64,000 bases of DNA from the NCBI GenBank assembly GCA_018402255.1, contig JAGYIS010000009.1:310001-374000 (forward strand), in the 5' to 3' direction. A program made the position numbers and the translations under genes. The notes beneath the pieces were generated by a model. That model saw only the letters and a program-made list of their open reading frames with translations. It had not been told where the DNA came from and searched no databases. This document shows positions 4,930 through 53,582 of the stretch, in pieces (position 1 is the stretch's first letter; each line of letters begins with the position of its first letter). Origin of the DNA: Marinobacter sp. (GTDB taxonomy: Bacteria; Pseudomonadota; Gammaproteobacteria; Pseudomonadales; Oleiphilaceae).

Positions 4930-6411
4930 ATGACTGTACGCACCCGAATCGCTCCGTCGCCCACTGGCGACCCACACGTTGGCACCGCCTACGTGGCCTT
5001 GTTCAATCTGTGCTTTGCGCGCCAGCACGGTGGCCAGTTTGTTCTGCGCATTGAAGACACCGACCAGGCCCGCAGCACGGCGGAATCGGAACAGGATATC
5101 CTCAAGGCGCTACGCTGGCTGGGTCTGAACTGGGATGAAGGCCCTGACGTGGGTGGCCCGCACGGCCCGTATCGCCAGTCTGAGCGTAAGCACATGTACG
5201 GCCAGTATGCCGAAGATCTGGTCACTGCTGGCCACGCTTTTTACTGCTTCCGCACCCCGGAAGAGTTGGACGCCATCCGCGAAGAGCGTAAGGCGCAGGG
5301 CCTGAACCCGGGCATAAAAGGTGATCTGGAACTGACCCAGGAAGAAGTAAAGCGCCGCCTGGACGCGGGCGATCCTTATGTCATCCGCATGAAAGTGCCC
5401 GATGAAGGTGTATGCGAGATTCAGGACATGCTGCGTGGCACGATCGAGATTGACTGGGCTCAGGTGGATTGCCAGATTCTGCTGAAATCCGATGGCATGC
5501 CGACCTATCACCTGGCTAACGTGGTGGATGACCACCTGATGGAGATTACCCACGTGCTGCGGGGCGAGGAGTGGATCAACTCCGCGCCCAAGCATAAGCT
5601 GCTGTATCAGTACTTCGGCTGGGATATGCCGGAGCTGTGCCACTTGCCGCTGCTGCGGAATCCCGACAAGAGCAAGCTTTCGAAGCGCAAAAATCCGACC
5701 AGCATCAACTTCTATGAGCGTATGGGCTTTTTGCCGGAAGCGGTCACCAATTACCTCGGTCGGATGGGCTGGTCCATGCCGGATGAGCGCGAGAAGTTTA
5801 CTCTGGATGAGATGATCGAGAACTTCGACATCCAGCGGGTATCACTCGGCGGCCCGGTGTTTGATGTGGAGAAGCTGCGCTGGCTGAATGGTCAGTGGAT
5901 TCGTGACGAGCTGAGCGATGAGCAGTTTATGGCGCGGATGCACCAGTGGTGGTTCAATCGTGACGATCTGCAAGCGCTGGTGCCGCACATCAAGGGTCGG
6001 GCAGAGGTGTTCTCTGACGTGGCGCCGATGGCGCAATTCATGTTCAGCGGCATGTTGAGTCTGAAGCCGGAAGACTTCACCCATAACAAGCTGGATGAAG
6101 CCCAGGTTCGCCGGGTGTTGCAGTTCACTCTGTGGAAACTGGAAGCTCAGCGCCACTGGAGCAAGGACACCATCTTCGCCGACATCAAGGCCCTGGCCAA
6201 AGCGATGGATCTGAAGATGGGGGATTTCATGTTCTCGATCTTTGTGGCCATCGCCGGTACACCCAACTCCTGGTCAGTAATGGACTCCATGGCGCTGTTG
6301 GGGCCGGACATGACCCGCGCCCGTTTACGCAGCGCGCTGGAAGTGATGGGTGGGTTTTCGAAGAAAGAAACCAAGAAAGTGGAGAAGGAATACGCGGCTC
6401 TGGATATTTAA
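4930..6411 (+). CDS. gltX: Glutamate--tRNA ligase
   Basis: Class I aminoacyl-tRNA synthetase charging tRNA-Glu, 493 residues as for canonical GltX. The HIGH-type motif is in [15 protein letters not shown] near the N-terminus and the KMSKS equivalent is KLSKRKNP near residue 250. The ATG at 4930 is preceded by AGG in CTTCAGGATGG, and a TATAAT box lies at 4883-4888. A tRNA-Ala and its own substrate tRNA-Glu follow directly, an arrangement also known in pseudomonads. Divergent from znuA. Confidence 0.97.
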
Positions 6412-6485
6412 TAAACGGTTTGATGGTTAATTGAGCGGTGCGAACAGGGATGTTCAAAAAACTTTAAAAAAAGCGGGCGCAAGTG

Positions 6486-6514
6486 TTGACGCCCCAAGGG
6501 CGGATCCTTAATAT
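6486..6514 (+). promoter_or_regulatory. Promoter of the tRNA-Ala/tRNA-Glu unit
   Basis: TTGACG (6486-6491), 17-bp spacer, TAATAT (6509-6514), ending 12 bp before tRNA-Ala. An A-rich tract (AAAAAACTTTAAAAAAA) lies just upstream, as in UP elements of stable-RNA promoters. The same hexamers and spacing occur before the tRNA-Pro block at 61513. Confidence 0.8.
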
Positions 6515-6526
6515 ACGCATCCGTTG

Positions 6527-6602
6527 GGGGCCATAGCTCAGCTGGGAGAGCGCAACACTGGCAGTGTTGAGGTCAGCGGTTCGATCCCGCTTGGCTCCAC
6601 CA
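6527..6602 (+). tRNA. tRNA-Ala (anticodon GGC)
   Basis: 76-nt cloverleaf with CCA encoded. The acceptor GGGGCCA pairs with TGGCTCC (one G-U). The anticodon arm is CAACA-CTGGCAG-TGTTG, giving GGC, and the T loop TTCGATC is present. Confidence 0.97.
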
Positions 6603-6609
6603 ATTTCTA

Positions 6610-6685
6610 GTCCCCTTCGTCTAGTGGCCTAGGACTCCGCCCTTTCACGGCGGCAACAGGGGTTCGAACCCCCTAGGGGACGCCA
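6610..6685 (+). tRNA. tRNA-Glu (anticodon TTC)
   Basis: 76-nt cloverleaf with CCA encoded. The acceptor GTCCCCT pairs with AGGGGAC. The anticodon arm is CCGCC-CTTTCAC-GGCGG, giving TTC. It is 7 nt after tRNA-Ala and shares its promoter and terminator. Confidence 0.97.
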
Positions 6686-6721
6686 ATACGGCTTGACGGT
6701 TTAGTCCACCGGATAGCCATC

Positions 6722-6749
6722 AAAAAAACCGCCTTCGGGCGGTTTTTTT
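6722..6749 (+). terminator. Rho-independent terminator after tRNA-Glu
   Basis: AAAAAAACCGCC-TTCG-GGCGGTTTTTTT: a strong stem with a UUCG-type loop and a seven-T tail. Confidence 0.93.
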
Positions 6750-6755
6750 GTGTCA

Positions 6756-6964
6756 GGGTCTGTCCCAGGGGTCTGTCCCCGAACGGGGACTTACCCACTT
6801 TTGCCCGTCTATTGCACCACACCAGAGCCCATGGGATTTTCAGAGATCGGCGCCAGCAGAAGGTTGGGGTCAGTCCCTTAGGGACAGACCCCTTTGTAGC
6901 CTTCCGATTTTGTGCCATAAAAAGGGTCAGTCCCCATGCGGGGACAGACCCCTGGGTCAGACCC
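6756..6964. repeat. REP-like palindrome cluster
   Basis: A tandem set of GGGTCTGTCCC variants: GGGTCTGTCCC at 6756, GGGGTCTGTCCCC at 6768, GGGGTCAGTCCC paired with GGGACAGACCCC at 6866-6892, GGGTCAGTCCCC paired with GGGGACAGACCC around 6924-6952, and GGGTCAGACCC at 6954-6964. The block GGCGCCAGCAGAAGGTT plus the ending CCCCTTTGTAGCC matches the cluster at 1682-1843 with small differences. The last unit overlaps the 3' end of the QueD-like gene. Confidence 0.75.
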
Positions 6965-7811
6965 GTTTAGCAATCGCGCCCTTACCAACCCCCTCATAAG
7001 CCTTCACCCGAATCTCATCCTCCGGAAACTCTGTCTTGAGCTCGTCAGCAATATGAGCGGCAATCAGCTCCACGGTGGTGTCGGTGTTAAGCATATACAC
7101 GCGGTTTTCGGGCAGGGTCAGGCCAAACTCACCCTGGTTGGCTTCGTATTCGAAGCTGATGTAGGCAACACCGTCTTCACCGACATAACGACGGACGACG
7201 TCTTCTTCAGTACCCACGTAGATGTCCTGCCACAGTTTGGCCCAGCGGTGCTCGAGCTCGTAATCCCGGTGGCCATTACGGTCGATGCGGATTGGCGATC
7301 TGTGGCCGTGGGCAATGCGCTGGCAGTTGCCCAGGTGTTTTTTCAGGCCGTGTACGTAGTGGTAATAAGCGCCTTCGATCACATCTTCCCGAAGGTTGAT
7401 TTCTACCGAGGTGACGTTACCGGGGAGCACGGTCTTGAGTTCTTTTTCCAACAGGGCCGCGACGGCGGAGGGCACCACCCGGTCTGCCGATAGCCAGACC
7501 ACCGCTTCATCCGGCGAACGATGCTCAATGCGACCGCCACCGGTCAGATCCCAAACAAAGGTGTCTGGCGTTGCTTCGTCCCAGTTCAGGCCCTGATAGC
7601 CGCGCGGTATCACCAGTCGGTGATCTACACGCTCGTCGATCACCCGCTTGATGGTGCGTTTCACCAGGCTGAAATCAAATACCATACCCTGGTCATCCAG
7701 ATCGCCCCCCAGCACCACGTCGGTAATCCAGCTTTCACCGACAAGGCCCCGGGTAGGGTCCAGATAGGCGAAGTCAATCACGGTGAGGTTGTCGACAAAG
7801 AGCTGATTCAT
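6957..7811 (-). CDS. 6-pyruvoyl-tetrahydropterin synthase/QueD-like protein (double-length)
   Basis: Member of the 6-carboxytetrahydropterin/6-pyruvoyl tetrahydropterin synthase family, probably a pterin or 7-deazaguanine pathway enzyme. About 284 residues from ATG 7811 (MNQLFVDNL), roughly twice the length of QueD. The N-terminal half has GMVFDFSLVKRTI and the DHRLVIP motif of the family; the C-terminal half has a CQRIAHGHRS zinc/catalytic motif, then DTTVELIAAHIADEL and a KAYEGVGKGA ending. The last codons and the TGA stop (AAA CGG GTC TGA) lie inside a REP-like palindrome. The exact substrate cannot be told from sequence. Confidence 0.8.
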   Translation of the reverse strand: MNQLFVDNLTVIDFAYLDPTRGLVGESWITDVVLGGDLDDQGMVFDFSLVKRTIKRVIDERVDHRLVIPRGYQGLNWDEATPDTFVWDLTGGGRIEHRSPDEAVVWLSADRVVPSAVAALLEKELKTVLPGNVTSVEINLREDVIEGAYYHYVHGLKKHLGNCQRIAHGHRSPIRIDRNGHRDYELEHRWAKLWQDIYVGTEEDVVRRYVGEDGVAYISFEYEANQGEFGLTLPENRVYMLNTDTTVELIAAHIADELKTEFPEDEIRVKAYEGVGKGAIAKRV

Positions 7812-7879
7812 GAAGGGTCCGGCTGATGTGGTTGCATGATGGCGGAATTCTAGCAAAAATCGCGTGATTCAGCAGTTTA

Positions 7880-8524
7880 GTGCGGATATCCGCAAAAGGA
7901 GCGAGCATCTTAAATCGTGACGGGGCGTCCCTCGATCAGCAATTTCCGGCATTGGTGCTGGCGGCGGGGCGTGCAGCCCGCATGGGATGCCGCAAGCAGC
8001 TGCTGGTTTTGCCGGGGCGCGGAACGCTGCTGAGCCATGCGGTGGCGCAGGCCCGCATCTTGTCTCGGCATGTGCACGCGGTGGTGGGTTGTGGTTACCC
8101 GCTGGTTCGTTATCGCTGCCGTCAGCAGCCATCCCGCTGGATCTATCATCCGCATTGGCAACTTGGTCTATCCGGGTCTTTGATTGCCGGTGTTCATGCG
8201 CTGAGCCCGCAGGCGCTGGGTTTTTTTGTGTTACTCGGAGATCAGCCTCTGCTCGGTGAAACGGGGCTCACAGAGCTGGCCCGCAGTGCCCGACTGAGTC
8301 CCGATATTGCCTGGGCGGCGGATTATGGTTCAAGGGTTGGTGTGCCTGCCTGGATACCCAGATCGCTCTGGCCAGAGATCACCAATCTGGAGGGAGATGC
8401 CGGCGCCGGGGTCGTCTTGAACACAGTGGGTGCCCTTGCCGTGGCGATGCCGGGGGTACAACAGGACGTTGATACCCCGGCGGACTGGCAATCCATCAAG
8501 CGACGTTTAGCCGAACAAGCCTGA
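7880..8524 (+). CDS. MocA-like nucleotidyltransferase (molybdenum cofactor cytidylyltransferase family)
   Basis: NTP-transferase fold of the MobA/MocA type, which attaches a nucleotide to molybdopterin. 214 residues. The signature ALVLAAGRAARMGCRKQLLVLPG is near residue 24-45, and LLGDQPLL carries the metal-binding Asp. The ORF opens with GTG at 7880; an AAAAGGAG lies inside the first codons with no standard start at the right spacing after it, so the true N-terminus is uncertain. Its end overlaps the convergent small ORF at 8507 by 18 bp. No other moco gene is nearby. Confidence 0.75.
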   Translation: MRISAKGASILNRDGASLDQQFPALVLAAGRAARMGCRKQLLVLPGRGTLLSHAVAQARILSRHVHAVVGCGYPLVRYRCRQQPSRWIYHPHWQLGLSGSLIAGVHALSPQALGFFVLLGDQPLLGETGLTELARSARLSPDIAWAADYGSRVGVPAWIPRSLWPEITNLEGDAGAGVVLNTVGALAVAMPGVQQDVDTPADWQSIKRRLAEQA

Positions 8525-8761
8525 CAGCCAGGCAATACCGACACTGAAGACACCCAGGCTGATGGCCAGGCCCAGTGTGTATAGGCGGGAGTTGGCAGAG
8601 CGCTGCTGCGTTACGTAAAGGTCGATGGTGCGCTGCGCAATATCCTCAGCGGTTTCGCGGGATATGTCATGGGCCTGCTGGATGGCTTCCGACTGCAGGG
8701 TTTGCCAAAACTCGGTATCGATGGTTTGCACGCTGGTGATGTGGTCTTTCAGTTCGGCCAT
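8507..8761 (-). CDS. Small membrane-tail ORF, probably the C-terminus of the adjacent response regulator
   Basis: 84 residues: a helical region ([22 protein letters not shown]) and one C-terminal transmembrane segment ([24 protein letters not shown]). It overlaps the end of the response-regulator ORF by 13 bp in another frame. Restoring one A in the five-A run at 8798-8802, or a -1 slip there, joins the two into one protein of about 362 residues ([21 protein letters not shown]). The combined span plus one base is divisible by three. Read as a separate gene it would be a small tail-anchored protein. Confidence 0.55.
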
Positions 8762-47436: not shown

Positions 47437-49248
47437 TCAGCGCAGCCAGTTTCGAACCTGCATGACCAGTCTCTCGCTTTCCGAGCGGGCCTCCCGCTCC
47501 GCAAGCAGTTTGGCGAGGACGTCCGGGCGGTCAGTGATAATGTTGTCAACGCCCATGTCCAGAAAGCGGGCCATGTCTTGCGGTTGGTTGACTGTCCACA
47601 CGTGCAGTTCATTATCGGCTTTGTGGGCTCTGGCAACAGCCGCCGGGTTGGCCCGGTTCATACGCAACGCCAGAATGTCGTAACGGTCTTGCCACAGTGG
47701 CCCTACCACAAACTGGGCCAGCAGTGCGGTTTTCAGTCTGGGCTCCATGTTCTTGGCTTGCTCCAGAACTGGCCAGTCCGCTGCCGCCAGTATGGTCCCC
47801 TCCACGGCGTCTTTGTCTTGTAAGGTTCGGATAACCTCCGCCACCAGTGCTTCCTCGTTCCGGTTCGGCTTCAGATCGACGAACAGTCGGGACTGGCCGC
47901 GCACGGCGTCAATGGCTTGCGCCAGCGTGGCGATGCTTTCGCCGGCGAAACTGACATCAAACCATGAGCCTGCATCCAGCGCCTGGATGTCTTCGAAATC
48001 GACGTCGGTGATACGTTCCGGTTTTCCGAAAATGCGCTGCATGTCGGCGTCGTGCCAGAGCACAGCGACGCCATCACGGGTCAGTTGGACATCTATCTCA
48101 ATATAATCTGCACCGTCCCTGACCGCCTGATGGATGGCGCTCAGGCTGTTTTCCGGCGCTTTGAAGGCGCTGCCGCGGTGGGCGGTAATGGTCGCATGGT
48201 CGTTTTGCTCCAGCGATGTGACCACCCAGAAACCTTGAAGGAGTACCAGTACGATGACCAGTCCCTCCAGTAACCAGGCCTCCAGGCCGGTTCTCGTGCT
48301 GGGTGGAGTTACCGATGGCTGCAGCCAGTGCGCCTGGTGACCGGTAATGCTCTGATACCGGGCGACGATCAGCGTACCAAGAGCTGAGCTGGCCAGAAAG
48401 GTCAATGCAAGGCCTGTCAGCAGGTATCCACCTATCAGCAGGATGACCGTTGGCAGCAGAACCGGCATGGTCTCTGGCAACACCTGAAACAGGCTCGCCG
48501 CCAGCAGGTTAAAAGTCAGGGTCACCAGTGCTGGAGCCAGAAAGATCGCCAGTATGCCTAGGGCCAGAGTGCCAGCAGCTGTCCGTGGCGTGCCTGCAGT
48601 GCGTTGCAGGCTTTGCCGAAGCGCAGGAATTGGTGGCACTCCCTCTAACATCAAAATCGGTATGGCCAGAATCCAGCGGAGGAACAAGGCTCCGTTTACC
48701 AGTGTAAGGCCTGCGAACATGACCGCACAGAAGCCCGCAAACCACCATAGAATGGCCGGGCGCTCAAGGTTAAGAAGGTAGGGGTCGTAATGTGTCAGCA
48801 ACAGATGCCAGGCAATTCCGACCCCTGTGATAAAGGGCAGGGCCAGCACAAGATGGGCTGCGGTCTGCAGGGTGGCCAAGGCTGCCAGTGCTGGAAAGCG
48901 TCGGCCAACCCCCCAAAGGGCCCGGGTGGTGGCTCGCAGTGAATGGTCTTTTGGTTGGGCGGCGATCAGGGTAATGCTGGCCTGCTGGAGTATGATCAGT
49001 AGCGCCGTGAACAGCACGGTAATCAATAACCAGAGTGCACCGCCAGCAGAGGTCAGGAATTCGAGTAAGCCGCCGGTGGTGATGGCAGCATCCCCGGTCA
49101 AAGGCCGGAGTGCGGACAGGGCTGCGGTCACCAGCGGCGTGATCACCGCAATAGAAAGCCCGGTGAAGGTCAGATAGAGCACCAGTAACGAGCGATGGTG
49201 ATGCCTGAGAAGTGCCATCGCCTGTCGTGTCAGGGCGTTCAGGCTCAT
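47437..49248 (-). CDS. Membrane-domain glycerophosphodiester phosphodiesterase
   Basis: 603 residues. Residues about 1-345 form a membrane region of about 7-8 hydrophobic segments, as in the GPDPase membrane-domain family, with a last TM GLEAWLLEGLVIVLVLLQGFWVVTSL. The C-terminal GDPD barrel follows: ITAHRGSAFKAPENSLSAI (His-Arg), EIDVQLTRDGVAVLWHD, LFVDLKPNRNEEA, VWTVN and DNIITDRPD. It would release glycerol-3-phosphate from glycerophosphodiesters, presumably outside. Its ATG overlaps the LtaS-like stop by 4 bp, so the pair is coupled. This architecture is best known from Gram-positives. Confidence 0.88.
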   Translation of the reverse strand: MSLNALTRQAMALLRHHHRSLLVLYLTFTGLSIAVITPLVTAALSALRPLTGDAAITTGGLLEFLTSAGGALWLLITVLFTALLIILQQASITLIAAQPKDHSLRATTRALWGVGRRFPALAALATLQTAAHLVLALPFITGVGIAWHLLLTHYDPYLLNLERPAILWWFAGFCAVMFAGLTLVNGALFLRWILAIPILMLEGVPPIPALRQSLQRTAGTPRTAAGTLALGILAIFLAPALVTLTFNLLAASLFQVLPETMPVLLPTVILLIGGYLLTGLALTFLASSALGTLIVARYQSITGHQAHWLQPSVTPPSTRTGLEAWLLEGLVIVLVLLQGFWVVTSLEQNDHATITAHRGSAFKAPENSLSAIHQAVRDGADYIEIDVQLTRDGVAVLWHDADMQRIFGKPERITDVDFEDIQALDAGSWFDVSFAGESIATLAQAIDAVRGQSRLFVDLKPNRNEEALVAEVIRTLQDKDAVEGTILAAADWPVLEQAKNMEPRLKTALLAQFVVGPLWQDRYDILALRMNRANPAAVARAHKADNELHVWTVNQPQDMARFLDMGVDNIITDRPDVLAKLLAEREARSESERLVMQVRNWLR

Positions 49249-51116
49249 GGGTCTTGCGGCGTCTGAAGCGTTGCACTTTCGGTCAGTGCAAAACGCTCCT
49301 CAATGGTCAGAAATGGATCGCCTTCGACTTCCTGCAGACTACCAAACAGACGGTCCGGATCGAATGACCAGGTACTGCACCGAGTCATCAGTTCTGTGCA
49401 GGCGAGCAGGGTGCCGGTTTCCCGCAGGAAGTACTTCATCCCGGTGTAGGTGTCGGCAAGCATGATGTCTCGTGATTTTGCGATATCGGTAGTCAGCAGG
49501 CTGCGGCCAATCATGCGGCCGGCCTTGTCACCATGACCGGTCACATCGAGGATGGTGATGGGTATGTCCAGTTGCGTGACTATCCGGTTGTCAGGTGCAA
49601 GTTGGTCCAGATACGCTTTACTGGGCGGGCGAATGGCGAGCACACCTAGATTGCTGTTGAGTGGCAAGGATTCGTGGTCGTCCCGGATAAATCCGCCGGA
49701 CTCATCGGAGCTGACAATAACCAGTGTGTTGTCGAGCACCCCTTCTTGCTCAAGGTCGACCAACAGACGCTCCAGAGATTGAGCCATCACTCTCATGGCA
49801 TTGCGACGCGGGGTTTGAGCTTGAGGAAGTGCCAAACTCGCGTCTTCTGATGCCAATTGCTGGGCAGCGAGTTCTTGCTCTGCCTGCTCGCCGATTTTGA
49901 ATGGGTGATGTGTGCCCACATTCAACGTTGTCACAAACCACGGCGCCTCCTCCTCATTCAGCTGGCGCAGGCGCTGTGTAATGTTGCTGAAAAACTCGGG
50001 GTCTGGCGGCCCCCATCCATCGGATTCCTTGCCCTCGATAAATATTTTCGCGCCGGTAACGTCGTCATAGCCGGCCTGTGACATAAACGCATCTTTGTTC
50101 ATGTATTCGATCGGGGCCGCCTGCCAGTATGCGGTGTGGTAGCCCTGATCCCGGAGTTTTTCGGGCAGGCAGTCGGGCGTGACTGAGCTGCTTGCAACCG
50201 ACTGCAGTTTTTCGGACGGTCTGCGCAGATCCGGGTAGCGACCGCACACCAGAGTGTAGGTTCCGCGATCAGTTTGTCGCTCCATGCTGAGCATGTTTTT
50301 GTAGATACGGAATCCGAACTCATCAAAGGTCGCCTCCAGGGTTTCCAGAGACACTGCCGGAGCAAGGTTATGGTAATTGCTGACGGAGGGCAGATAACCC
50401 CCAGATAGTCCCTCGATCAGAATCAGCAGCACGTTGGGCCGGGATGACGGAGTCTGATTGCTGACTTCCTGGTGAAAGAAGTTCGTCCGGTTTTTGAGTG
50501 GCTCACTGATTTCGGCGGTTTCATCGCCAATGGCGGTGCCTACCGGATTCAGGATGGCGCCCGGTATCTGTGCCAGGGTGCTGGCCACGACGTTGTTTGC
50601 GGGCGTGGTCAGGCTGGGAAACGATAACGAATAGGTGATGGTCACCAACACCGTTCCGGCAAGCAGCAGCGCCGGTCGACGCTTCGACACCGGTACCCAC
50701 CGACGGTGCAGTCGATGCAACAGCCACGCGAGAGCGAGGTAGCCGGGCAGGGTCAACAAATGCATGTTCAGCAGGCTACCGGTAATAAATGTGGTGTCCA
50801 TGCCTTTGCTGGCAAAGGCAAGCTTGAACAGCGTGCCATGGGTGCCAAGGTGCATGCCGGCAACGTAAAGTGCGAAGCCAAGCACTGTGATCAGTGCACC
50901 CCGCATAATTCCGCCAGACAGCTGAAGCAGAACCGCCAGTATGAATGCGCCGGCGATGTCGCCGCCGAGACTGCCCGGCAGGCTGGGGACCACGCCGCTC
51001 TGGGCGATCAGCAATCCCCGGACGATTAACAGCCAGACCAGCGCGAGAAAAAACGTCTGTGTGATACCGGCGAGAGAAAAAGCCCGGTTCCTTTCCATTG
51101 GTGTACCTGTATGCAT
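49245..51116 (-). CDS. LTA synthase-family (alkaline phosphatase superfamily) membrane enzyme
   Basis: About 617-623 residues. About five N-terminal TM segments to about residue 185, then an extracytoplasmic sulfatase-like domain: VLLILIEGLSGG (metal Glu), nucleophile Thr in MERQTDRGTYTLVCG, NVGTHHPFKIG, and VIVSSDESGGF where the family normally has an Asp-His pair. LtaS and OpgB transfer glycerol-phosphate; EptA-like relatives transfer phosphoethanolamine. The coupling to a GDPD makes glycerol-phosphate transfer the better guess. Start ATG 51116 or the M at codon 7 (MERNRAFS). Divergent from the PQQ fusion gene. Confidence 0.82.
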   Translation of the reverse strand: MHTGTPMERNRAFSLAGITQTFFLALVWLLIVRGLLIAQSGVVPSLPGSLGGDIAGAFILAVLLQLSGGIMRGALITVLGFALYVAGMHLGTHGTLFKLAFASKGMDTTFITGSLLNMHLLTLPGYLALAWLLHRLHRRWVPVSKRRPALLLAGTVLVTITYSLSFPSLTTPANNVVASTLAQIPGAILNPVGTAIGDETAEISEPLKNRTNFFHQEVSNQTPSSRPNVLLILIEGLSGGYLPSVSNYHNLAPAVSLETLEATFDEFGFRIYKNMLSMERQTDRGTYTLVCGRYPDLRRPSEKLQSVASSSVTPDCLPEKLRDQGYHTAYWQAAPIEYMNKDAFMSQAGYDDVTGAKIFIEGKESDGWGPPDPEFFSNITQRLRQLNEEEAPWFVTTLNVGTHHPFKIGEQAEQELAAQQLASEDASLALPQAQTPRRNAMRVMAQSLERLLVDLEQEGVLDNTLVIVSSDESGGFIRDDHESLPLNSNLGVLAIRPPSKAYLDQLAPDNRIVTQLDIPITILDVTGHGDKAGRMIGRSLLTTDIAKSRDIMLADTYTGMKYFLRETGTLLACTELMTRCSTWSFDPDRLFGSLQEVEGDPFLTIEERFALTESATLQTPQDP

Positions 51117-51248: not shown

Positions 51249-53582
51249 ATGGAACGCAGTCTGTTAACGAAAAAACCTGTCCGGATCGTAATCGCCGGTG
51301 CGGTGGCTGTGCTGTGCGGCGCCTTCCTGGGCAGTCTGGTTCAGACTCAATTTAATCTGGCGGCGCTTTCTGGGCTGGGGGCATCGTTCAGTCTGGGCGA
51401 TCGGTTGTCGGCTATGGCAATGGATCTGCTGAGCTTTGCTCCGGTTTATGCCGGCTTGCTGACTGCTGCGCTGGTTCCTGGTTTTCTGGTGACCGCAGGT
51501 TTGTTGCGCCTGTTGGGGTTGCCTTGTCGTGAGTGTTGGTTCGCGTTCGGTTCCGCCATGGCCTTGTGGGCGACGCTGACCCTGGTCGACAGCCTGGCGC
51601 CAATGCCTACGTTGATTGCGGCAACACGTTCGGCGCCTGGCTTATGGGCCATGCTGGCGACAGCGGCGGTTGCGGGCTGGGTGTTCGCCCAGATCACCAA
51701 ACTAAGGTTCACGGGCGGCAGCGGTCGGATGTCGTTGGCCATTATGGTGTTAACGGGCGTTGCGGCCAGTCCGGAACCGGCCCTGGCGGAAGTACCTGGT
51801 CAGGCGGATTACGAAGTCGAGGTGGTAGCGCAGGGCCTCGATCACCCGTGGTCGATTGCTTTTTTGTCGGGTGGCGCGGCCCTGGTGACAGAGCGCGGTG
51901 GCGTGCTCAAGCATCTGTCACCGGATGGTGAGCAAACAGTGATCAGCGGGGTGCCGGCAGTGTTTGCCTCTGGCCAGGCGGGTCTGTTTGATGTGCTGGT
52001 GAGGCCGGTTGGCGATGACCCGGTTCGAGTCTTCCTGAGCTATGCCTGTGGTCAAAGTAGCGCCAATCATTTGTGTGTCGCCAGTGGTGATCTGACCGGA
52101 ACTGAGTTGACCGATGTGCGCGAGATCTTTCGGGCCAAACCCGCGAAATATGGCAATGCCCATTATGGCGGTCGAATGGCCTGGCTGGGCGATGGCAGCT
52201 TGTTGGTTACGCTGGGCGATGGCTTTGACTTCCGGGAGGAGGCGCAACGATTATCCAGCCACATCGGCACCATCGTGCGGTTGAACCCGGACGGCTCCGT
52301 GCCCAAGGATAATCCGTTTGTAAACCATGACGGAGCGCAGCCCGAAATATTCAGTCTTGGCCACCGCAACGTGCAAGGGGTTATCTACGATGGTCGGCAA
52401 GACCGCATCATCGCCCATGAACATGGCCCCCGCGGGGGTGACGAGATCAATCTGATTCGCGGTGGTGGTAATTATGGTTGGCCCCTGGCCTCGGATGGCG
52501 TGGACTACACCGGTGCCCTGGTCACGCCGTTCCGGCGTTATGAAGGAACCATCGCACCTTTGTGGTTCTGGACGCCGTCCATTGCGCCTTCGGGGATGGC
52601 CCTTTACCACGGCCACCAGTTTCCGCAGTGGCGTGGCAACTTGTTTGTGGGCGCGCTTGCGAACAAGAGCGTACACCGGATGGTTCTGGTGGACGGCAAG
52701 GTGGTTGCCACCGAACGGCTTTTTGACGAACTGGATGAGCGCATTCGCGATGTGCGGGAGGGCCCGGACGGCGCGCTCTATCTCCTGACGGACTCGCCGG
52801 AAGGCCGGCTGCTGCGGGTGGTGCCCCGTGAGCCTCCGCAGGTTGAGATCATGGCGCTGGAGCCCGAGGCCCTGGCCTGGGTGGGTGATCAGATTTTCCG
52901 AAATGAATGTGCGGCTCGGCATCAATGCCTGGTGCACTGGAACGAGGGCGAAGCGTTTCCCTCGTTAGGTATTGGTCACTTCATCTGGTATCCCGAGGGC
53001 CAAACCGGTCGATTTACCGAGAGTTTCCCGGCTCTGCTGGCATTCATGGTTGACCAGGGCGTTGAGTTGCCGGCCTGGTTAGACACTGCCCGTCACGAGG
53101 GTGCGCCCTGGCCGGACCGGGCTGCTTTTCTGCAGCAGGCCTCCGCATCTTCTCAGGTAGAAGCGTTGCGGGACCTGCTGTATTCCACTCGGGGGCTTCA
53201 GGTGCGCTTTATCCGGGAGCGAGCGGATCAATCCCTGGCGGCGGTGGTGGCGGCTGTGCCAGGGGCCAGCCAGGCGATCGTCAGGGAGCGCTTATGGCAG
53301 TTGGGGCAAACACCGGGCGGCGTTTATGCCTTGATGGATTATGTGAATTTCAAAGGCGAAGGGCTGGCGGACACCGAGCGGTACGAGGGCGAAGGCTGGG
53401 GTCTGCTCCAGGTGCTTGCGGGGATGGAGGAGGGCGACGCTTCGACCGTGCTGGATCGGTTTCGTGAATCGGCGGGCGAGGTGCTCTCCCGTCGTGCGCA
53501 GTTGGCTGAAAATCCGATCGAACGTGAGCGCTGGTTGCCTGGCTGGCTTCGACGTCTGGAAAGCTATCGGGAGCCGGAGTAA
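51249..53582 (+). CDS. Fusion: N-terminal membrane domain, PQQ-dependent aldose dehydrogenase, uncharacterised C-terminal domain
   Basis: 777 residues. Residues 1-180 hold about five hydrophobic segments. Residues 185-530 are a six-bladed soluble-type PQQ sugar dehydrogenase (Asd/GdhB type): GLDHPWSIAFL, the His in NAHYGGRMAW, LGDGFDFREEAQRL, GSVPKDNPFV, LGHRNVQG, EHGPRGGDEINL, WTPSIAPSGMALYHG and DERIRDVREGPDG. Residues 540-777 are a conserved-looking region with FRNECAA, WNEGEAFPSLGIGHFIWYP, NFKGEGL and ERWLPGWLRR; the spacing E to GIGH recalls T4-type lysozymes, but this is weak. The whole would be periplasm-facing. PQQ and Ca are expected cofactors. Confidence 0.8.
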   Translation: MERSLLTKKPVRIVIAGAVAVLCGAFLGSLVQTQFNLAALSGLGASFSLGDRLSAMAMDLLSFAPVYAGLLTAALVPGFLVTAGLLRLLGLPCRECWFAFGSAMALWATLTLVDSLAPMPTLIAATRSAPGLWAMLATAAVAGWVFAQITKLRFTGGSGRMSLAIMVLTGVAASPEPALAEVPGQADYEVEVVAQGLDHPWSIAFLSGGAALVTERGGVLKHLSPDGEQTVISGVPAVFASGQAGLFDVLVRPVGDDPVRVFLSYACGQSSANHLCVASGDLTGTELTDVREIFRAKPAKYGNAHYGGRMAWLGDGSLLVTLGDGFDFREEAQRLSSHIGTIVRLNPDGSVPKDNPFVNHDGAQPEIFSLGHRNVQGVIYDGRQDRIIAHEHGPRGGDEINLIRGGGNYGWPLASDGVDYTGALVTPFRRYEGTIAPLWFWTPSIAPSGMALYHGHQFPQWRGNLFVGALANKSVHRMVLVDGKVVATERLFDELDERIRDVREGPDGALYLLTDSPEGRLLRVVPREPPQVEIMALEPEALAWVGDQIFRNECAARHQCLVHWNEGEAFPSLGIGHFIWYPEGQTGRFTESFPALLAFMVDQGVELPAWLDTARHEGAPWPDRAAFLQQASASSQVEALRDLLYSTRGLQVRFIRERADQSLAAVVAAVPGASQAIVRERLWQLGQTPGGVYALMDYVNFKGEGLADTERYEGEGWGLLQVLAGMEEGDASTVLDRFRESAGEVLSRRAQLAENPIERERWLPGWLRRLESYREPE

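Follow-up and report, generated by a model that had tools for sequence, protein, structure and literature searches.

A Marinobacter fusion gene joins a membrane domain and a PQQ sugar dehydrogenase to a widespread secreted domain with a predicted lysozyme-superfamily fold

The window, a 64,000-nucleotide stretch of a 3.51-Mb, 99.2% complete Marinobacter genome, carries one long gene in which a membrane domain, a glucose/sorbosone dehydrogenase-type (GSDH) domain and a C-terminal domain (CTD) are joined in a single polypeptide of 777 amino acids (Table 1). An earlier note, made from the letters of the window alone, had described this gene as a continuous open reading frame (ORF) encoding about five N-terminal transmembrane (TM) segments, a complete PQQ aldose-dehydrogenase propeller and some 240 C-terminal residues that it could not assign, and this outline is borne out. 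The frame runs without interruption from ATG to TAA, and the count of TM segments was a fair one, given that the four TM helices are followed by another hydrophobic stretch (residues ~160-180), a remnant of the dehydrogenase signal peptide. Pfam recognizes the GSDH domain alone, matching all 332 of the 332 positions of the PF07995 profile (E 2.5e-118), and residues 1-183 have no match in Pfam or NCBIfam. Likewise, the last 240 residues match nothing in Pfam, NCBIfam, PHROGs or the PDB sequences, and their conserved islands lie where the note had placed them (GIGH at residue 574, NFKGEG at 700 and ERWLPGWL at 760). The linker before the CTD stands at the position where stand-alone CTD proteins carry a signal peptide or lipobox. 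Because the membrane domain contains no histidine, it offers no obvious haem ligand, and the binding of haem b by this domain was rejected.

Table 1. Positions of the fusion gene and its parts in the window (all on the forward strand).
Feature	Coordinates	Strand	Evidence or comment
Complete three-part fusion gene, 777 aa	51249..53582	+	Intact also in L028, L029 and G018 (L004/L137)
N-terminal membrane domain, residues 1-152, ~4 TM helices, no Pfam family	51249..51704	+	Homologue is a separate 168-aa ORF in G029
Fifth hydrophobic segment, residues 160-180 (...ALA/EV...), GSDH signal-peptide remnant	51726..51788	+	Sequence; GSDH ORF of G029 begins here with its own signal peptide
GSDH domain, residues 197-523, YliI/Asd-type PQQ aldose sugar dehydrogenase	51837..52817	+	PF07995; PDB alignments
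Linker, residues ~526-539, weakly conserved	52824..52865	+	dN/dS 0.2-0.88 versus ~0.1 in the domains
CTD, residues 538-777, predicted lysozyme-superfamily (GH46-like) fold	52860..53579	+	Sequence family and two AF2 models
Codon of E553 (domain E16), end of helix 1, predicted general acid	52905..52907	+	Invariant, 65/65; helix 2-17
Codon of E568 (domain E31), predicted general base	52950..52952	+	Invariant, 65/65
SLGIGHFIWY, residues 572-581, most conserved 10-residue window, predicted beta-hairpin	52962..52991	+	Conservation; strands in both models
Codon of D697 (domain D160, within DYVNFKGEG), sole further invariant acid	53337..53339	+	65/65 sequences

Divergently oriented from the fusion gene, on the minus strand (47437-51116), are genes for a membrane-domain GDPD (PF03009 and PF10110) and for a membrane protein of the sulfatase family (PF00884), the latter having the size of LTA-synthase/OpgB-like enzymes. 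In many Marinobacter, one or both of these genes also adjoin the CTD gene where it stands alone, and in two Saccharospirillum loci the GDPD gene does so by itself. Together with the CTD gene, the pair possibly constitutes an envelope-glycan cluster.

The middle domain is, by its sequence, a YliI/Asd-type PQQ aldose dehydrogenase and is predicted to carry out PQQ-dependent sugar oxidation. It aligns with PDB entry 7cdy (E 1.2e-80) and with the Escherichia coli protein in 2g8s (E 6e-79), and both alignments reveal that the catalytic and PQQ-site motifs HYGGR, GHRN-QG, EHGPRGGDE and NYGWP are retained. YliI itself is a periplasmic PQQ enzyme of broad sugar specificity (PMC13088180). The genome holds two PQQ-type sugar dehydrogenase genes, the second of which lacks any extra domains. 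No PqqE homologue above the NCBIfam family cut-off was found in this genome or in two further genomes (G002 and G015), and PqqE is present in 22 of 24 other Marinobacter genomes; a search for PqqC carries no weight here, since it returned no match even in the control genomes. With PqqE absent, the oxidase may lack a home-made cofactor and may rely on external PQQ. E. coli likewise relies on PQQ taken up from outside.

Relatives of the CTD proved to be numerous: GTDB species genomes contain at least 567 confirmed stretches that encode one, and 80 of these stretches were examined as a sample of loci. A profile search of 399 Pseudomonadota genomes located the domain in 50, and 43 of these belong to a single family. 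Among the matches listed are Marinobacter, Saccharospirillum, Hahella, Thiothrix, Mariprofundus, Verrucomicrobiota (Chthoniobacter) and one Fusobacteriota bin; the hosts among these matches are exclusively diderm, and most genomes carry one copy. The stand-alone form that the earlier note had suggested looking for thus exists, and every such protein examined (78/78) begins with an N-terminal hydrophobic signal, including 34 with a lipobox as judged by a simple pattern. To judge from these signals, the CTD is normally a separate secreted protein, and the family is both widespread and extracytoplasmic. Exceptions to the single-copy rule include Thiothrix, where two family genes lie in tandem (L085:8001-9750 and L107:8001-9808), and Marinobacter mangrovi, where two copies are ~28 kb apart (L063 and L072).

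Apart from the Marinobacter fusion, no fusion of the CTD to another recognized domain was encountered among the checked loci of the 80 sampled, and no gene neighbour is conserved across phyla, synteny being lineage-specific. An origin as a phage endolysin was rejected, as phage records, plasmids and viral contigs yielded no convincing relatives. Two other leads were likewise dismissed. A weak match of 19 members to NCBIfam TIGR03865 (PQQ_CXXCW) is a coincidence over a motif of ~30 residues and falls far below the cut-off. PDB matches of the CTD profile to TRIM5/T4-lysozyme chimeras derive their score from the TRIM5 coiled coil, and in the T4 lysozyme part the alignment of LvsWnegedfpslGiGhf with LKIYKNTEGYYTIGIGHL has an insignificant score. 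A search of open-licence literature found no account of the CTD family or of a fusion of GSDH with a lysozyme.

Structure prediction by AlphaFold2 (AF2) gave confident models of the CTD, one from 65 sequences (pLDDT 92.4, pTM 0.88) and one from an alignment headed by a Chthoniobacter sequence that is 46% identical to the CTD of the window (pLDDT 93.1, pTM 0.86); the two are not fully independent, because their alignments have most rows in common. When compared with the PDB by Foldseek, the first model has GH46-type chitosanases as all of its top eight matches (best 4ily, E 0.014, probability 1.00, TM 0.50), and the top seven matches of the second are the same chitosanases (best E 0.019, probability 0.99, TM 0.47). 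No match reaches E 0.001, and rmsd values are 6.6-8 Å. These modest E-values, with TM scores at the edge of what is expected for a shared fold, indicate that the relationship to GH46 is distant. Viral fold matches include annotated lysozymes and endolysins, although these are weak.

Profile comparisons place the CTD in neither of the two candidate families. The Pfam GH46 profile matches none of the 65 members, and hhalign assigns a probability of 0.1% to GH46 and 7% to GH24, each represented by an alignment of five sequences; PF00959 (GH24) also has no Pfam match. GH19 is represented neither by a PF00182 match among the members nor by a chain among the fold matches listed. The suggestion in the earlier note that the CTD is lysozyme-like therefore holds at the level of the superfamily, where it is supported by the GH46 folds that head the matches of both models, an invariant pair of glutamates and an exceptionally conserved hairpin. 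The nearest family is predicted to be GH46, rather than GH24 or GH19, with which the note had proposed to compare the modelled fold, and membership in either of the latter is not demonstrable.

The arrangement of conserved residues resembles the anatomy that Wohlkonig et al. (2010) described for the superfamily, which comprises a core helix bearing the catalytic glutamate and a most highly conserved beta-hairpin that holds a serine or threonine (PMC2976769). In the first model, helix 1 of the CTD (domain residues 2-17) ends in an invariant NE, whose glutamate, E553, is the one that the earlier note had suspected. The only invariant acids among the 65 sequences, which come from three phyla, are E553, E568 and D697, and the two glutamates are 15 residues apart, compared with 16-17 for the corresponding acids in the GH46 alignment made here. 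The SLGIGHFIWY segment (domain residues 35-44) is the most conserved window in two alignments and is predicted to form a hairpin in both models. Its serine, S572 (domain S35), is at least 90% conserved, with alanine in some members such as L091, and is a candidate for positioning the catalytic water, with E553 predicted as acid and E568 as base. A Glu:Glu lysozyme has a precedent in DslA (PMC7511926).

The fusion is not unique to the window, as the ORF is intact in four genomes, namely those of the window, M. excellens HL-55, M. halophilus and a fourth Marinobacter (G018). The CTDs of the three other fused proteins are 75-95% identical to that of the window, the closest being M. excellens HL-55 at 95%. 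In the three genomes whose flanks were compared (the window, M. excellens HL-55 and M. halophilus), the gene adjoins lpxH-ppiB-glnS-cysS at the same site. The four fused CTDs form a single clade (support 100/98) that was recovered in 100% of 200 bootstrap trees. Values of dN/dS lie at 0.07-0.20 in the membrane domain, 0.09 in GSDH and 0.08-0.13 in the CTD, and at 0.2-0.88 in a 20-residue linker; all three domains are under purifying selection. The intact frame in four genomes, the single clade and the dN/dS values together establish that the fusion is real, that it arose once and that its three parts are selectively maintained, although it is confined to one clade of one genus. An assembly artefact or a frameshift is ruled out as its source by the four genomes and the constrained ORF.

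Intermediate arrangements are preserved in relatives. In another family of the same order (G029; L148:977-1483), the membrane domain is encoded by its own 168-aa ORF, whose 3' end runs into the beginning of a 377-aa GSDH ORF that has its own signal peptide. The membrane domain, which has no Pfam match in its fused form, may be a partner dedicated to YliI-type dehydrogenases. Ten Marinobacter genomes encode the membrane domain and GSDH (TM-GSDH) as a single protein of ~540 aa without the CTD, 55-57% identical to the corresponding part in the window. Among the 24 other Marinobacter genomes in the relatives search, 23 encode the CTD on its own, in open frames of 277-400 codons that often specify a lipoprotein. 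The TM-GSDH gene is found upstream of the stand-alone CTD gene, on the same strand, in M. flavimaris, M. sediminum, M. guineae and strain EhC06 (loci L042, L045, L050 and L051). In M. flavimaris, Fpr is followed by TM-GSDH (5764-7344), then by a 4HBT thioesterase (from 7413) and the CTD lipoprotein (7839-8726). The fusion was built stepwise from neighbouring genes on the same strand, with one origin.

We consider it reasonably probable that the product of this stepwise fusion of neighbouring genes is a bifunctional protein, anchored in the inner membrane and facing the periplasm, that combines a PQQ dehydrogenase with a glycan-cleaving CTD. Its N-terminal helices would serve as the anchor, and the basic N-terminus, the four helices and the former signal peptide imply that GSDH and the CTD should face the periplasm. 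The GSDH domain would oxidize C1 of free sugars or of oligosaccharide reducing ends, whereas the CTD would hydrolyse a beta-1,4-linked glycan of amino sugars with inversion, cell-wall peptidoglycan being the most probable substrate; E553 would act as acid and E568 as base, and the hairpin with S572 would hold the water. Such cleavage would leave a reducing end, and a YliI-type propeller could oxidize reducing sugars at C1. The fullest version of this model, a 'cut then oxidise' enzyme in which the CTD cuts the cell wall or a related glycan, the propeller of the same periplasmic polypeptide oxidizes the new ends or the released sugars, and the CTD founds a new glycoside hydrolase family across several diderm phyla, is, taken as a whole, improbable.

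Several alternatives bear on the CTD itself. The domain could have a lysozyme-type fold and yet be a GH46-like hydrolase of chitosan, deacetylated peptidoglycan or an exopolysaccharide rather than of ordinary peptidoglycan. Marine bacteria encounter many polysaccharides, and the nearest folds are all GH46 chitosanases. Furthermore, a Glu:Glu pair is noted for the chitosanase group GH80 and for DslA, a lysozyme that acts specifically on deacetylated peptidoglycan (PMC7511926). However, a usually single-copy protein of the periplasm or lipoprotein class, restricted to diderms among the matches listed, better fits a substrate in the cell envelope, and no recurrent neighbour gene marks a cluster for polysaccharide use, so that we regard this alternative as unlikely, if quite conceivable. 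That the CTD is a non-catalytic domain with a lysozyme fold, binding glycan or serving a structural role, such that the fusion merely anchors the dehydrogenase at the wall, or a wall domain at the inner membrane, is a decidedly improbable explanation. Members of the superfamily of this kind are known, including alpha-lactalbumin and a sperm lysozyme-like protein (PMC7511926), and the hairpin serine is substituted in some CTDs, but the invariance of two glutamates and one aspartate and the extreme conservation of the hairpin are typical of active enzymes. It is more doubtful still that the fold match is misleading and the CTD adopts a distinct fold with an unrelated function. TM scores of ~0.5, Foldseek E-values above 0.01 and the lack of a match to GH24 or GH46 profiles are in keeping with that idea, whereas two models with different lead sequences both return one family as all of their top matches, the anatomy of helix glutamate and hairpin agrees independently, and the viral lysozymes and endolysins, though weak, also appear.

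A further explanation concerns the fusion rather than the CTD and is compatible with the bifunctional protein proposed above. A deletion might have joined neighbouring genes whose products continue to work alone, without functional coupling, and we give this slightly less than an even chance. The partners are neighbours in some relatives and separate in most species, the fusion has one origin and few hosts, and the linker is unconstrained. Conversely, the gene is intact in four genomes with every part constrained, and the inner-membrane anchor has replaced the lipoprotein or signal-peptide form, an exchange that should change the location of the CTD.

The more important result is the unannotated, widespread secreted CTD family itself, as hundreds of members from Pseudomonadota, Verrucomicrobiota and a Fusobacteriota bin have no Pfam or NCBIfam entry. 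A secreted, unnamed family with a predicted fold of the lysozyme/chitosanase type probably represents a new family of glycan-cutting enzymes, of which the Marinobacter fusion is one natural example joined to a sugar oxidase. The predicted fold and the invariant residues open a glycan-cutting activity to direct testing. If the prediction is true, the CTD would represent a new family of envelope enzymes within the lysozyme superfamily, and the fusion would be a genetic hint of a link between YliI-type sugar oxidation and glycan turnover.

Each part of the protein can be set beside a known system. YliI/Asd-type dehydrogenases (PF07995; 2g8s and 7cdy) share the full-length beta-propeller domain and all main motifs with the fused GSDH domain, but YliI is a free soluble protein, whereas the Marinobacter domain is preceded by a membrane domain and followed by a lysozyme-like one. 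For the CTD, the T4-type lysozymes of GH24 offer an N-terminal helix ending in glutamate followed by a hairpin of the form T/S-x-G-I/Y-G-H, the resemblance on which the earlier note had drawn. This specific link is not borne out, since the glutamate lies 21 residues from GIGH in the CTD rather than 17, the domain has 240 residues rather than ~165, the GH24 profile comparison is negative and the fold search favours GH46. DslA of Bdellovibrio is similarly an extracytoplasmic Glu:Glu enzyme of the lysozyme superfamily that stands outside the classical families, but its authors place it nearest to GH23 (PMC7511926), and the search of PDB sequences returned no match between it and the CTD. The GH46 chitosanases (4ily, 1chk and 1qgi) differ in that they have no sequence or profile similarity to the CTD and use aspartate rather than glutamate as the second acid, and the hairpin SLGIGHFIWY is the CTD's own. 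Nevertheless, they are the top fold match of both models and share with the CTD a helix-borne glutamate, a second acid at nearly the same spacing and a hairpin that comes next.
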